This document shows, one piece after another, positions 5,303 through 24,890 of a stretch of 64,000 nucleotides of DNA. The position numbers and the translations under genes are program-made. Under the pieces are notes generated by a model, which was not told where the DNA came from, ran no database searches, and worked only from the letters and a program-made list of their open reading frames with translations. The stretch is from Candidatus Gastranaerophilales bacterium (GTDB lineage: Bacteria > Cyanobacteriota > Vampirovibrionia > Gastranaerophilales > Gastranaerophilaceae), in assembly GCA_944326475.1 (NCBI GenBank), contig CALVEC010000007.1, positions 1-64,000 of the forward strand, read 5' to 3'. The number at the start of each line of letters is the position of its first letter. Position 1 is the first letter of the stretch.

Positions 5303-7287
5303 CTACCCTATCAGTGACAGGACTATTGACGCGTGGAGGTTTTGGGATTGCGCGAGGAGCGCGGAGGAGGTTTGCTGGAGAATCTGATTCTTCACAAAAT
5401 CCGCCGACTCATTCGCAATATCCGCGTCCATTATGGTCGATTTTGCCGATGTAAAATTCTGGATAGTCGTGGTTTGCGACTCGAGAATCGAGGACAAGCG
5501 GTTAATCACAGCGCCGAACTCTGAGCGTTTTGTATTTATGCGCGACAATACCTCGTCAATGTCCTCAATCGCTGCCGCGCAGGAGTCTGCAGACGAAAAA
5601 TCCACATCGAACGCGCCAAGGTCGAATGAGGTGTCGACATAGATCGCAGATGTCGAACTAGAATCCGAGCCTATTTGCAGCCGTACGGCTCCAGGAATCG
5701 GCACATCTCCTCCGCCGGGTGTGTTCGGGTCATCAGCGTCAGAATCACCGCCTGGGTTTGTAGACGATTGGGTCTGCCATTTCAATTTTGGCGGATACGT
5801 CGAAAAATCCCAAACCGTATCATCCCATCCTTGCCAGTTCGTGGGGTCTTGCATTTGAGACGTTGTCAGCCCATTATTATTTGTAAAAACTCCCATACCA
5901 TCATCATAACCATATGCAATATTCTGACCTGTTGTTTCTGGATTCCATATTGAATTTTCAAGTTTTCCACCTCCCATACTTTCTCCAACTAATCCACCAA
6001 CATATGTTACTCCCAGAACAACACCTGTCGCATAAGAATTAGAAATAATTCCACCATAATTGTTACCAACAAGACCACCGACACCTTCGCTCCCAGTCAC
6101 GTCATTCGATGTATAAGAGTTTGAAATTGTACCAAATGCATTCATGCCAACAAGACCACCGGTCAAAACACCATTTCCCTCTATCCTCCCCGCTGCATAA
6201 GAGTTTGATACTGTTCCATAAGTTTGATATCCAACAAGCGCGCCGGAATATGAAGCTCCATCAATATTTCCATTACTGAAAATATTTCCAATAACACAGC
6301 AGTTTGTTATATTACCCATCAACACTGGGGCAATTCCGCCTACATAGCAAGAACCTACTATATTTACATTTTCAAGACACAAATCCTTAACTTCACCTCC
6401 GGTCATTGTATTAGGGTCGCCAATACCTACAAACAAGCCGGCACCATCTTCATCAGGTCTATTTATTGTTAAGTTTGAAATTGTATAACCGTTTCCGTCT
6501 AATACGCCGGTGAAACCCTGTCCGGTTCCAGCATCCACATCAACTTCCCCTATCGGATTCCAGTTGGAGTAGGATGACAGGTCGATGTCGTTCATGAGGA
6601 TGTATTTACCGTCGAGGTCATTGCGGATGTTGTCGAGGTCTTGGGCGGTTTTGATGACTGTATAACCCTGGTCTATGGCTTCTTGTTCGGAGATACGATT
6701 AATCTGTTGGATAAAGCCGCTGCTGCTTTTTGCGTCAGGAGTGGAGTTTAAGGTATTGATACCGGCTAAAGAACTGGTATTAGCGGTATTACCGGTATAC
6801 CCCCCCCCCCCCATAGGGTGGAGATAGCTGCTGTGCCTGCGTTTTGGGTAGTTAGATTCCAAGTTGCGTTTGTATTAAAAATACTTTTGCCGTTGAATAA
6901 TGTGCCCTGCTGAATTTGTTTTAGTTGGGCAACGAGTGAGTCTGCCTCGTTTTGCATGGCATCTAAGGAGTTCTCATCGTAAACTCCGTTTGCGCCCTGG
7001 ACTGCAAGGTCTCTCAGGCGGTTGAGGATGTTTGTCATGTTTGACAAGGAGCCTTCGGCGGTGTTTAGGAGGGATATGCCGTCTTGGGCATTCTTTTGGG
7101 CTTGTTTAAGACCGCGGATGTTGGCATTGAGGTTTGAGGCAACAAACATGCCTGCAGCGTCGTCGGCAGCACAATTCACCTTATACCCCGTGCTCATGCG
7201 CTCTAATGCCGTGTTTAGGCTGAACGATGCAAGGTTAAGGTTTCGTTGGGTTGTCAGCACTGATGGGTTATAGTTTGTGCTTATCAT
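5303..7287 (-). CDS. fliC: Flagellin with GLUG-repeat insert, out of frame at a poly-G tract
   Basis: Flagellar filament protein. Residues 1-145 are a classic flagellin N-terminal domain (LNTALERMSTGYKVN, AADDAAGMFVASNL, LRDLAVQGANG). The last 90 or so residues are the matching C-terminal domain (NRLSSILE, DADIANESADFVKNQILQQ). Between them sits a large insert of about 400 residues with repeated GLUG-type motifs (GGLVG followed by ISNSY), as found in bacterial surface adhesins. Frame is lost at a run of 13 G (6800-6812): as written, translation stops at 6766 after 173 aa. A run of 11 or 14 G would restore one protein of about 660 aa. AGGAG precedes the start. The gene edges look more GC-rich than the insert, suggesting a mosaic. 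Phase variation and assembly error are both possible. Confidence 0.85.
6800..6812 (-). repeat. 13-nt homopolymeric G tract inside flagellin
   Basis: Thirteen C on the plus strand (G on the coding strand) lie just after codon TGG at the end of the conserved N-terminal domain. The reading frames before and after the tract are both long and flagellin-like, but are offset by one base. Homopolymeric G/C tracts of this length are classic slipped-strand phase-variation switches. Confidence 0.9.
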
Positions 7288-8100
7288 TCCTGTATTCTCC
7301 TGTGATTGTTACGATACTTTTTTGCTTTTTTTGTTTTTGGGTTTGTTGCTTTACTTTACGCGTCATCCTGAGCTTGTCTCAGGATCTGTACCAGCATTGA
7401 TTGTAAAAACAATCTTTGAGGTTGGTTGAAAAGTATTTTTTTCGTCACGCTAGGATTATTGCTACCCTCTGCGTTTGTACAGATGCTGAAACAAGTTCAG
7501 CATGACATTATATTTTTTGTAGGATTGGTAAATCCAACCTACTACTGTCATGCTGAAGCGCCAGACGTTTGTGTCAGCTTTAATATTTCCATGTTCAGCA
7601 TCTTGCCGGCGCTGCGTTCAGCGCAAAATGCCAAGCGTGTAAGATCCTGAACACACACGATTATCACTGCGCTCCTGATTTATCGCTTCAGGATGACAGA
7701 AGTTTTTTGTATTTTAAAATACGTCTTTTGTTTTTCTATTCACTTTTCAAGTTGCGATTTTGCCGGATACCGGCGGGGTTGTTGCCTTTGCTTTTTGTTA
7801 CTGAGTGAAAGACATTGACGCCCTCACCCCTGCCCTCTGTCTTGGATTTACTTCACGCTCACAGAGTTTCACCTTTTGTGCTTTGCACAAGCCGGCTCAA
7901 TCTGTTCGCTACCCGGACTAACTCCCTTCTGTCGTGTCGTCCGTCCGTAAATCCGTTCCCCCAGGAGAGGGAGTTGGGTTTATATTTGTTTTTCAGGATT
8001 TCTTTCCATCCCTTATATTGTCATTCTATCTCTTTTTCCTCTCATGACCATTCTTATTTAGTTGGATTTTTTTCATACTTTAGTTGGAAATATTCAATAA
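7288..8100. repeat. Gene-free region with REP-like repeats upstream of flagellin
   Basis: No convincing gene in about 800 bp. It holds several degenerate copies of a palindrome of the type gtcatcctgag-cttgtctcaggatc: 7362-7386, 7481-7507, a half copy at 7546-7562, and a copy with an internal insertion at 7641-7700. A hairpin with AGGATTGG and CCAACCT arms is at 7521-7540. Split arms of the GC-rich palindrome seen at 5246 lie at about 7817-7840 and 7962-7980. A member of the first family recurs at 56183-56210, so these are dispersed genomic repeats. The flagellin Shine-Dalgarno lies at the left edge, and no convincing flagellin promoter was found. Confidence 0.55.
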
Positions 8101-20198: not shown

Positions 20199-21512
20199 TC
20201 AGACTTTTTCCGCAATAGATATAAGTTTATCAACGGTTTCATCATAGGCAGTTTTTTCATCAATAGACTGCTGCAAGAATGCATTGATTTCATCCATATA
20301 TTTTATGGCTTTGTCCGTCACCGGATCGCTTCCGTTCACATAAGCACCAATATTAATTAAATCTTCATTCTTTTTATATGCCGCAAGAAGGTTTCTTATT
20401 TTTCCGGCTGCCTTGATGTGTTCTTTTGTGGTAACTTCCTTCATTACACGGCTAATGCTTTCAAGCACATCAACCGCCGGATAATGGTTTTTATGGGCAA
20501 GGTCTCTGGAGAGCATAATGTGACCGTCTAAGATACTTCTTGCCGTATCTGAAATAGGTTCGTTAAAGTCATCACCTTCAACAAGTACTGTGTATAATCC
20601 GGTGATTGTGCCATATTCGTTACTTCCGGCACGCTCCAGAAGTTTTGGCATAAGTGCAAACACAGACGGAGTATATCCTCTTGTTGCCGGAGGTTCGCCG
20701 ACTGCAAGCCCGACTTCCCGCTGTGCCATTGCAATACGGGTAACACTGTCAAGCATAAAAAGCACATCTTTTCCCTGATCTCTGAAATATTCGGCAATTG
20801 CTGTTGCAACAAAGCCTGCTTTAATTTTTACAAGAGACGGCTGCTCTGAGGTAGCAACAACGACAATTGAGCGCTTCATTCCCTCAGGTCCAAGCGTACT
20901 TTCAATAAACTCCCTGACCTCTCTGCCGCGTTCTCCAATCAAGGCAATAACATTCAGGTCGGCGTTCGTGTTTTTTGCCATCATAGCAAGCGTTGTACTT
21001 TTTCCGACACCTGAACCGGCAAAAACACCCAGCCTTTGACCTTTACCTGCGGTTATAAATCCGTCTATGGCTCTGATTCCGAGAGACAGGGGCGTTCTTA
21101 TAAGTTGTCTGTTAAGAGGATTTATTATTTCAGCGTGTGTCGAATATGTAGTTTCCGTGTTAACATCGCCGAGAGTATCAATAGGCTGCCCGAGTCCATC
21201 CAAAACACGTCCTATAAGCTGCGGACCGACTTTTATCTGCATAGGTGCACCAGTATTTGTCACAATAGCGCCGGGGCGCAAACCATCCATTGACCCCAGC
21301 GGCATAAGAAGAAGTTTTTTCGTCTTAAACCCAACAACTTCAGCCCACATAGGTTTGTCATTAAGGTCGTTATAAATATAGCAAAGGTCTCCGATACTTG
21401 CTTTCGGACCGTCAGATTCTATGATAAGTCCGATAATTTGCGTAACCTTGCCCACTTCAACAGAGGGTTTTGTTTCATTAATTATTCTTTTATATCTGGT
21501 TAAATTTATCAT
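20199..21512 (-). CDS. fliI: Flagellum-specific ATPase FliI
   Basis: ATPase of the flagellar type III export apparatus. The 437-aa protein has Walker A GVFAGSGVGKST, the Walker B region VLFMLDSVTRIAMAQREVG (the FliI/SctN signature) and GEPPATRGYTPSVFA. F1-beta-like folding is evident. It is the last gene of the fliF-fliG-fliH-fliI block and overlaps fliH by 23 bp, suggesting translational coupling. Confidence 0.96.
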   Translation of the reverse strand: MINLTRYKRIINETKPSVEVGKVTQIIGLIIESDGPKASIGDLCYIYNDLNDKPMWAEVVGFKTKKLLLMPLGSMDGLRPGAIVTNTGAPMQIKVGPQLIGRVLDGLGQPIDTLGDVNTETTYSTHAEIINPLNRQLIRTPLSLGIRAIDGFITAGKGQRLGVFAGSGVGKSTTLAMMAKNTNADLNVIALIGERGREVREFIESTLGPEGMKRSIVVVATSEQPSLVKIKAGFVATAIAEYFRDQGKDVLFMLDSVTRIAMAQREVGLAVGEPPATRGYTPSVFALMPKLLERAGSNEYGTITGLYTVLVEGDDFNEPISDTARSILDGHIMLSRDLAHKNHYPAVDVLESISRVMKEVTTKEHIKAAGKIRNLLAAYKKNEDLINIGAYVNGSDPVTDKAIKYMDEINAFLQQSIDEKTAYDETVDKLISIAEKV

Positions 21513-22284
21513 TGTTCAAATTCATATCATTGACTTCGTTTGCCAGTTCGGCTTCCGGCACGGAGTTCATTTCATTTATAAGTTTTTGGTAGATTTGCTC
21601 AATCTGCCCGCTCATTCTTGTATCAATTCTTGAATCAAGACTCTCTATGATAGTCCCGTCAGCAGAAACAGAAGAATCCTCCTGGATTTTTATAGTTTTA
21701 AGCCCGTGTATTTTGCTTTTCATGTCGTCAGCAATAGCGTAGAGTTTGTTAATCATTTCAGGATTGGCAATAATTGTTATTTCTTCTTTTTCGCTAAGCT
21801 GATTTATTGATTCTTCAACAAGTGTTCTCAAAATTCTCGGATTCTGGCTGAGTTCCTGTTTGCAAACTTTTTTTGCAATATCAGTAATTAAATCCAAAAT
21901 ATCAAGATGGGCAGATTTTATAATTTTATTTTTTAACTCAAATGTACACTTTGCAAACTCATCGACATTCTGTATTCTGTCTTCAAGTTCAGTCGTTATT
22001 TTTTCTTTACCTTCGGAATAACCGGCATTAAAACCGTCTTCTTTAGCGGCTTCCGTTATGGTTTCAGCCTGGGATTCCGCTTCAAGCCGTGCCTGTTTTA
22101 TAAGATTTTCTGCCTGAGTGTGAGCCTGTGCAATTATTCCCTGTGCTTCAAGTTTTGCATCTGCAACAATTTTTTCCGCTATTTTTTTTGCTTCGACTAC
22201 TTCTTTATTTAAAACCTGATTCCCTTCCGTGTTAATGGTGAAGGAATTACCAAAATTTATTTTATTGCTTTCAATTCTACTCAA
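21490..22284 (-). CDS. fliH: Flagellar assembly protein FliH
   Basis: Stator-like regulator of FliI. The 264-aa protein has an N-terminal Ala/Glu/Gln-rich coiled coil (AKKIAEKIVADAKLEAQGII) with GxxxG-like heptads. A C-terminal domain similar to V/A-ATPase subunit E follows (HLDILDLITDIAKKVCKQEL; EEITIIANPEMI; KIQEDSSVSADGTIIESLDS). The start is TTG, overlapping the end of fliG by 8 bp. Position between fliG and fliI is the standard order and supports the call. Confidence 0.9.
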   Translation of the reverse strand: MSRIESNKINFGNSFTINTEGNQVLNKEVVEAKKIAEKIVADAKLEAQGIIAQAHTQAENLIKQARLEAESQAETITEAAKEDGFNAGYSEGKEKITTELEDRIQNVDEFAKCTFELKNKIIKSAHLDILDLITDIAKKVCKQELSQNPRILRTLVEESINQLSEKEEITIIANPEMINKLYAIADDMKSKIHGLKTIKIQEDSSVSADGTIIESLDSRIDTRMSGQIEQIYQKLINEMNSVPEAELANEVNDMNLNNDKFNQI

Positions 22285-23308
22285 TGTATTCGTCCTCTTG
22301 AGAATCTCTGGTTATAATAATTTCTCCCGCAGCTTCGAGAGCACGGATAATGCCGACAATCTTAGTTTGTTTTTCCTGAACTTCTTTCGCACGAACAGGT
22401 CCCATATATTCAAGTTCTTCTTTTAGCATAGTCTGGGCACGTTCAGACATGTTAGAATAAATTTTTTCTTTTATTTCATCTCTTACACCTTTGAGAGAAA
22501 TGGCAAGGTCTCTCATGTCGACCTCTCGGATTATACGCTGAATAGCATTGTCTTTGAGCTGGATAATATCTTCAAATACAAACATAAGCTCCCTGACGCC
22601 TTCCGCAAGAGCCAGATTTTTGAGTTCAAGATACTCAAGAACATTTTTCTCGGTTGCACGGTCAGAACGGTTAAGGATGTTCGCAAGAGAACCGACACCA
22701 CCTGCCTTAGAAAAGTCTTGCGCAACAACAGAAGAAAATTTACTCTCTACAATTTTTTCTATTTCTGAAATAATTTCAGGGTTTGTAGAGTTCATATCTG
22801 CAATTTTAAAAGCAACCTGCGCCTGCACATCCGGCGGCAAGCTGTTCAAAACCTTCGCTGAGTTTTCAGGTTTTAAATAAGCAAGAATAAGCGCAATAAG
22901 CTGCGGGTTTTCATTCTGAAACGACGTCGCAAGCTGAGAAGGATCAGCTTCATTGAAAAACTGAAACGGATTGGTCGTCAACATCGTAACCAAACGCGAC
23001 AGCATATTCTGTGCCTGCTCGGCGCCATAAGCTTTTTCCAACAGGGTTCTCGCATAGTTTGTACCGCCTGATGCCAGATAGTCGCTCGCCAGAAAAAGAG
23101 AGTGAAATTCTTCAAGTATTTGATTCAGAATTTCATTAGGAACTTTGTTCAAGCTGGCAATATCAAATGTCAACTGTTCCAAAATTTCTTCTTCTTTTAT
23201 ATTTTTAAGAATTTCAGATGCCGTAGTCGGACCCAATGCAATAAGCAGTGCTGCTACTTTTTGCCTTGTGGTCATTGTTTCGTATGTAAATGCGACTTCT
23301 CCTGTCAT
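22277..23308 (-). CDS. fliG: Flagellar motor switch protein FliG
   Basis: Rotor C-ring protein that interacts with the stator and sets rotation direction. 343 aa, typical length. The N-terminal segment TTRQKVAALLIALGPTTASEIL, the middle EHPQ-like region (here NENPQLIALILAYLKPENSA) and the C-terminal charged torque helix (IQRIIREVDMRDLAISLKGV, where the Arg and Asp residues recur) are present. It lies 4 bp after fliF. Confidence 0.95.
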   Translation of the reverse strand: MTGEVAFTYETMTTRQKVAALLIALGPTTASEILKNIKEEEILEQLTFDIASLNKVPNEILNQILEEFHSLFLASDYLASGGTNYARTLLEKAYGAEQAQNMLSRLVTMLTTNPFQFFNEADPSQLATSFQNENPQLIALILAYLKPENSAKVLNSLPPDVQAQVAFKIADMNSTNPEIISEIEKIVESKFSSVVAQDFSKAGGVGSLANILNRSDRATEKNVLEYLELKNLALAEGVRELMFVFEDIIQLKDNAIQRIIREVDMRDLAISLKGVRDEIKEKIYSNMSERAQTMLKEELEYMGPVRAKEVQEKQTKIVGIIRALEAAGEIIITRDSQEDEYIE

Positions 23309-23312
23309 TTAT

Positions 23313-24890
23313 TTAGTCCTTAATATAAGAAATTAGTATTTTGGCTGCTTCTGACGGATCAGCCATAATCGTATCTGTCAAATCCGTTTTGAGTTTGTCA
23401 AGCTCAGGATTCAAACGGGCTTCAATTTGAGGCAGCGATTCTACTTCAAATTTGTCAATCAGGTTGTCTGTAATCGTCTGCGGAGCTTCTTCGTATTCTT
23501 CAAATTCTTCTTCTGCAGCAGTTTTACCAAAGAGCGAACGGAATACAAAGAGTGCCGCAAGTCCGAGAATCAGGATTATCAACATAGGAACAATTTTGTT
23601 GACAACCAATTCCTGTTGTTTTTCCTGTGCAATAGCTTTTGTAACAGCAGCCTCCTGTGCTCTGTTTGCATCAACTGCGGCAAATTGCAGACTGGTAACA
23701 TTTATAATATCTCCGCGGTTTAAATCAGCACCGCTTGCAGATATAATAAGTTTTTCGAGTTCTTCTTTTTCTTGAGTTGTAAGAATTTTATTTACAGCAA
23801 CGGCAATAGTCATTCTTTTTACCGTTCCGGGAGCGTAAATTATTTGTTTCACTTCTTTTGAAACACTGTAATTCGTAGCAGTTTTTTGTTTTTGATAGTT
23901 CAGATTTTTATTTTGTCCGGCCTGTGTTGTAGGAGCAGGAGGATTGTTTGTTCCGGTTGTAACTCCCGGGTTGTTCGGATTCGGGTTTTCGTAATTTTCC
24001 ATCTCGGTTTGAGATGATGTCAAAACTCCTTGCTGCGAACCCTCAACAGGTATATAGCTTTCAATCGTAGAACGCGTGCTGTTGAAATCAATATCAGCAC
24101 TTACCTGTACGGAAGCATTATCTCTGCCGACAATTTTATCTAAAACATCCTGAATTTTTTGTGCTGTTTGGTTTTCAAAGTTCGTTTTGTAACTTTCAAT
24201 GTCACTGGAGCTTTTCTCTGTTTCATCCGAAAGATTATTGCCTGATTGGTCAGTCAGAAAGACTTTTTCCGGTTTCAATCTCGGTATGGAATATGCAACA
24301 AGATTTTTTATTGCTTTTACCTGAGAGGTTTTTAATTTATAACCCGGCTCAAGTATAAGCATAACAGATGCAGATGGTGATTCATCCTTATCCATAAAAA
24401 CAGAACGTTCAGGGTCTGCTATCTGCACTCTGACTTTTCTTACACCGTTCATTTTTTCAATGGAGCGGGTAAGTTCACCCTGATAGATTCTTTGCTTTGT
24501 TAATTTATTTTTAAAGTCGGTAGACCCGAGCTGCATATCATCAAGAAGTTCAAATCCCGGTGCAGAATCTTGTATCAGGTCATTTTCCGCTACATATATT
24601 CTTAATTCGTCAATTTTATCAGAAGGAACAAGCACAGATTTTTTGTCACTGCTGACTTTGTAAGCATATCCGCTTTTTTTAAGACTTTCTGTAATTGCTA
24701 TAGAATCCTGTTCGGATAAATCTGAGTACAACACTGACCAGTTTGGCTCGAGAGATTTTGTAATAAAAAATCCGGTCACGACAAGTGTTATCGCGCTGAG
24801 TACCACAATACCGAATTTTTGTCCGAGTTCTAAGCCGTTCCAAAGTTTTATTAAATCATCCATAAACAGCTTAAAATAGTTAGTTTCCAA
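23313..24890 (-). CDS. fliF: Flagellar MS-ring protein FliF
   Basis: Forms the MS ring in the inner membrane, the base of the flagellum. The 525-aa protein has an N-terminal membrane helix (FGIVVLSAITLVVTGFFI), the YscJ/FliF domain (LYSDLSEQDSIAITESLKKS; GFELLDDMQLGSTDFKNKL; ARL-like VRVQIADPERSVF), a central low-complexity Asn/Pro/Gly segment, a second membrane helix near residue 445 (IVPMLIILILGLAALFVF) and a C-terminal FliG-binding tail. The start is TTG with a strong AGGGGAG just upstream. It is the first gene of the fli operon. Confidence 0.95.
   Translation of the reverse strand: METNYFKLFMDDLIKLWNGLELGQKFGIVVLSAITLVVTGFFITKSLEPNWSVLYSDLSEQDSIAITESLKKSGYAYKVSSDKKSVLVPSDKIDELRIYVAENDLIQDSAPGFELLDDMQLGSTDFKNKLTKQRIYQGELTRSIEKMNGVRKVRVQIADPERSVFMDKDESPSASVMLILEPGYKLKTSQVKAIKNLVAYSIPRLKPEKVFLTDQSGNNLSDETEKSSSDIESYKTNFENQTAQKIQDVLDKIVGRDNASVQVSADIDFNSTRSTIESYIPVEGSQQGVLTSSQTEMENYENPNPNNPGVTTGTNNPPAPTTQAGQNKNLNYQKQKTATNYSVSKEVKQIIYAPGTVKRMTIAVAVNKILTTQEKEELEKLIISASGADLNRGDIINVTSLQFAAVDANRAQEAAVTKAIAQEKQQELVVNKIVPMLIILILGLAALFVFRSLFGKTAAEEEFEEYEEAPQTITDNLIDKFEVESLPQIEARLNPELDKLKTDLTDTIMADPSEAAKILISYIKD

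Follow-up and report, generated by a model that had tools for sequence, protein, structure and literature searches.

Is the run of 13 G inside a flagellin gene of this Gastranaerophilales genome a switch, or is the gene simply broken or misassembled? The window (the whole 64,000-nucleotide stretch of DNA analysed) carries the gene on its minus strand, and its parts are as follows.

7287 to 5303, minus strand: flagellin gene, window copy (C7:6865)
7288 to 7340, minus strand: leader and ribosome-binding site (CAGGAGAATACAGG)
6766 to 7287, minus strand: open reading frame as assembled, giving a 173-aa truncated product, with Flagellin_N at 7275-6865
6800 to 6812, minus strand: G13 tract on the coding strand (C13 on the plus strand), in the linker past the flagellin N-domain; proposed switch
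5303 to 6799, minus strand: body plus C-domain of the flagellin, in the alternative register and open as far as the stop at 5303-5305
6017 to 6094, minus strand: best GLUG motif, in the variable domain
5321 to 5566, minus strand: Flagellin_C domain (PF00700)
20199 to 24890, minus strand: fliI, fliH, fliG and fliF, all intact

The tract occupies coding nucleotides 476-488, counted from the start at 7287. When the frame was computed for tract lengths from 9 to 16, the assembled 13 G led to a stop after 173 aa and 11 or 14 G gave 660 or 661 aa; every other length gave only 164-174 aa. The first piece of the gene matched Flagellin_N (PF00669; residues 5-141, 2.9e-35). The second matched Flagellin_C (8e-17) and GLUG repeats (PF07581) and had no internal stop, so that with PF00669 and PF00700 at its two ends the gene qualifies as a bacterial flagellin. 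The preliminary description, made from sequence alone, had reported 13 G at these positions at the end of the N-domain, two intact halves out of register, a protein of about 660 aa with 11 or 14 G and a 173-aa truncation with 13; all of this held, and every number for the tract was exact. The tract and its frames are thus shown directly. All other G and C runs in the 64 kb are 6 bases or shorter, and extrapolation of run lengths gives a chance expectation of ~1e-7 runs of ≥13 G/C per window. The base preceding the tract is G in this copy where the paralogs have C (CTATGGG.. vs CTATCGGG..), so it is possible that some of the 13 G stem from substitution and not from expansion alone.

Gastranaerophilales are non-photosynthetic relatives of cyanobacteria known from animal guts, and a termite-gut relative has been described as probably motile (PMC5877343). 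The window holds intact fliF, fliG, fliH and fliI: the flagellar machinery is present, and the source is a flagellated member of the group. The genome has 23 Flagellin_N matches and 14 G/C runs of ≥11, against a chance expectation of ~0.0004 per genome. Twelve of the 14 runs lie directly past a flagellin N-domain (two of the 12 as C runs on the coding strand), and a thirteenth flagellin has a G8 tract. Lengths among these paralogs are 8, 11, 12 and 13. As assembled, seven of the 13 tract-bearing flagellins are unreadable (OFF), five are readable (ON), and one is ON but truncated by a contig end. The repertoire of 13, shown here copy by copy and followed by three further flagellins, is:

C2:83697: G12, OFF as assembled
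C2:45945: G12, OFF as assembled
C16:52840: G12, OFF as assembled
C4:113462: G12, OFF as assembled
C7:6865 (window copy): G13, OFF as assembled
C14:62023: G8, OFF as assembled
C34:1448: G11, OFF as assembled; body truncated by the contig end
C21:25360: G11, ON, 665 aa
C4:141719: G11, ON, 667 aa
C14:52124: C11, ON, 603 aa
C16:6758: C11, ON, 1160 aa
C6:103683: G12, ON, 1435 aa
C4:139: G11, register open as far as the contig end
C13:45: truncated just ahead of its tract
C6:118198 and C12:2961: interrupted runs (e.g. CCCCTCCTCCC), both ON

The genome is a 35-contig draft in which several contigs terminate at flagellin repeats; the length or pairing of some copies may therefore be wrong, any one tract length may be one base off, and the ON and OFF states are those of the assembly, not of a population. 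The exterior domain of the 1435-aa ON flagellin (locus L027) carries GGxGxDT-like repeats that look RTX-like by eye.

Each complete OFF body is open through to an identical C-terminus, SALLAQSQNLHASIVLSLIG, without a second lesion, and the OFF copies retain the start codon and both conserved ends. The leader and ribosome-binding site are nearly identical in most tract-bearing copies, ON and OFF alike. Among OFF copies the C-domain dN/dS had a median of 0.019 (range 0 to 0.048); between the window copy and C14:62023, both OFF, the C-domains differ at pN 0.000 and pS 0.309, with zero amino-acid changes. OFF bodies are thus under strong purifying selection, and a dN/dS near zero makes a long-standing pseudogene unlikely. 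Flagellin copies differ by 0.1-0.6 at third positions and their identity is patchy; they are therefore distinct copies that have undergone some exchange in the past.

Comparison with sister species showed that tract lengths vary between species whereas the required register stays constant; this rests on a syntenic flagellin pair and on an acetylation locus. The flagellin pair has C13 and is OFF in G002, a species of the same genus, vs the interrupted run (CCCCTCCTCCC) and ON here. The acetylation locus (L029, C2:121136) holds one of the two non-flagellin runs of ≥11 in the genome, in an AlgX-like operon; it encodes an AlgX-like SGNH protein, upstream of an apparent MBOAT gene. Its tract is G12 here, G13 in G002 and C10 in G003, and in each of the three species it is computed to be open at lengths of 11 or 14. 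(The other non-flagellin run, L030 at C14:25932, lies in an Acyl_transf_3 gene.) G002 also has a flagellin with G13 at the equal coding position, ON at 703 aa, whose linker resembles by sequence that of C4:113462 here (G12, OFF); the flanks match only partially, and synteny was not established. The window flagellin has no counterpart beside metK in G001 or G002, where metK is kept and similarity ends just past its 3' end, and so looks like a lineage-specific copy; in the G003 assembly, the third one compared, the contig ends. The tract of the window copy itself consequently lacks a syntenic comparison in the sister species checked. Length differences between copies and between species are shown; they come from paralogs and other species, with no second isolate of this species.

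Taken with these data, the tract is very likely a translational phase-variation switch, and the window gene one of a phase-variable flagellin repertoire, with slippage within populations and expression being inferred. Four criteria for a simple-sequence-repeat phase-variable gene are satisfied: a tract far beyond chance length in a coding region, a length that toggles between full-length and truncated frames, a gene intact and selected outside the tract, and lengths that differ among copies or strains (here paralogs and syntenic orthologs). The preliminary description had proposed phase variation by slippage and, as a check, a comparison of tract lengths in related genomes. The proposal is supported, and the check found differing lengths between species; switching or length mixing in a population was not directly shown. 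Support that was new to that first reading comprises a similar tract in 12 other flagellins of the same genome, the coexistence of readable and unreadable states, OFF bodies that are open and selected, and a syntenic sister-species locus in the opposite state. The reading is limited by the draft assembly, by the absence of reads that could show length mixing, and by the absence of expression data.

In the proposed mechanism, slipped-strand mispairing in the G run would alter tract length, and one length in three would put the variable body and C-domain in frame with the conserved N-domain and so give a full-length flagellin; the other two would give a short N-terminal fragment. That fragment should fail to polymerise because the C-terminal helix is missing, an inference that has not been shown. 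Modelled with AlphaFold (mean pLDDT 66), the ON paralog C21:25360 has long N- and C-terminal helices around a strand-rich domain at ~209-478, which corresponds to the region of the best GLUG motif in the window copy and resembles the beta-helix, non-catalytic part of M26 IgA1 proteases. The model's matches are to that protease region (best 3n6z, E 1.1e-7) and to flagellar filaments. The tract of this paralog falls within linker residues 139-195, where pLDDT is under 50. As the G run encodes glycines in a linker predicted to be disordered, changes of three bases should be tolerated; a slip of one or two bases would cost the protein both its exterior domain and its C-terminal helix. With ~13 flagellins having different exterior domains and a tract each, filament composition would vary among the cells of one clone, surface diversification being the inferred benefit. 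MutS1 is present in the genome, which counts against the switch reading in so far as its loss is not aiding slippage; hypermutability through a lost MutS1 was rejected.

Several other explanations need to be weighed. The preliminary description had named assembly error as the main alternative: the true tract would be 11 or 14 and the window copy simply ON. Homopolymers are error-prone and this draft is broken at flagellin repeats, but such error could affect the exact length of one copy and not the overall pattern; it cannot yield thirteen copies with differing tract lengths plus orthologs elsewhere, and were it limited to the window copy, what was captured would simply be a switch in its ON state. 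We therefore consider it very unlikely. A plain pseudogene, permanently broken by the frameshift, was the other alternative raised, and there is indeed no read-through as assembled. It is contradicted by the near-zero dN/dS of OFF C-domains, the lack of second lesions in complete OFF bodies and the retention of leader and start, and is all but excluded.

In another reading, patterned on pilin antigenic variation, the OFF copies would serve as silent donors for recombination with whichever flagellin is expressed. The paralogs are dispersed, local identity is patchy and some exchange is likely. However, silent cassettes of the pilin type are donors devoid of start signals and of one conserved end, and the OFF copies do not fit this criterion: in them the start, the leader and the ribosome-binding site are all present, as are the two conserved ends. 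The tract would moreover be unnecessary, and N-domain and C-domain divergences between copies correlate (r 0.82), so that the ends have not been scrambled by exchange. This alternative seems unlikely. So does the idea that RNA polymerase slips, or ribosomes shift frame, on the G run, so that some full-length protein is made at any DNA length. Polymerase or ribosome could slip on 11-13 consecutive G, and this would also account for selection on OFF bodies, but the open register needs different lengths in different copies, and interrupted runs are confined to ON copies (C6:118198 and C12:2961), as expected of a DNA switch locked open. Slippage of this type might nevertheless add to DNA slippage.

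The phase-variation reading has partial precedents. The poly-G/C contingency loci of Campylobacter (its phasome; PMC6321876, PMC8355987) are likewise G/C homopolymers in surface-structure genes, with frame set by length and many loci per genome; they belong to a different phylum, and the flagellum-related switches known to us there spare the filament protein and affect genes for modification or export (C. coli flhA, for example; PMC2831843). In Helicobacter pylori fliP and Campylobacter coli flhA (PMC2831843 reference list), a reversible frameshift in a short homopolymer toggles flagella; there one basal-body or export gene controls all motility and presence changes, whereas here single filament subunits would switch and composition would change. 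Neisseria Opa proteins are several paralogous surface proteins that switch independently, each with its own in-frame repeat. The likeness lies in that arrangement; unlike the present genes, they have a pentamer repeat in the signal peptide and are outer-membrane proteins of an unrelated family. Salmonella Hin (fliC/fljB; cited in PMC7018530) also alternates antigenic flagellins, but by site-specific DNA inversion between two alternatives.

Slippage phase variation is well known, with examples in genes of flagellar export and of the basal body (PMC2831843 reference list) and in flagellin modification (PMC3068675). In the literature searched, which left out most subscription journals, we found no case of slippage on a flagellin repertoire and none of phase variation or homopolymeric tracts in Melainabacteria/Gastranaerophilales; the first reading, too, knew of none for flagellins of this lineage. 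The best-known slippage switches are those of a few pathogens; in this case the switched genes would be a large set encoding flagellin itself, and the bacterium belongs to an uncultured sister group of cyanobacteria that lacks photosynthesis and is known from animal guts. Since flagellin is among the chief targets of both host immunity and phages, switchable exterior domains bear directly on how a gut resident varies its surface. The prediction is open to testing through tract lengths in existing metagenome reads. A bolder reading, which we favor by a narrow margin only, is a combinatorial filament: ~13 poly-G/C-switched flagellins with different exterior domains would allow thousands of compositions per clone, as one branch of a family-wide Gastranaerophilales poly-G contingency system that also controls prepilin-like proteins and glycosyltransferases.

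Beyond this genome, runs of ≥11 G/C occurred in 84 of 117 sampled genomes of the same family, and in a class-wide sample of 240 genomes G/C runs were commoner in this family than in others; sampling was uneven, and we regard these observations as leads. Among the loci read in relatives, prepilin-like genes (N_methyl motif) have the tract a few codons past their start, and genes for glycosyltransferases and acyltransferases carry tracts as well. For certain flagellins of other genera the run, G9-G13, instead precedes the start by about 80-260 bases (L076, L083, L086, L088, L092, L094), which suggests that a transcriptional switch, possibly of promoter spacing, may operate there. In genus g37 an upstream G tract is followed by a short inverted repeat. 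A general dispersed element combining a G tract with a short inverted repeat (TAnAACCC...GGGTTT) is not claimed, the strict pattern having occurred 6 times, in 3 of the 117 genomes.

Many contigs of the G006 draft have an end no more than a few hundred bases away from a G11+ tract; repeats or mixed tract lengths may be the reason. Genomes of genus g10 contain about 225-780 positional matches to G11. Four genomes (G012, G004, G006 and G033; L050-L055, L098-L111) have many G11-14 tracts, in differing registers, shortly past the starts of prepilin-like paralogs. At L099 (G004:C1:205000-211500) and L112, adjacent glycosyltransferase genes (GT8, GT2) each carry a G11-G13 or C14 tract.
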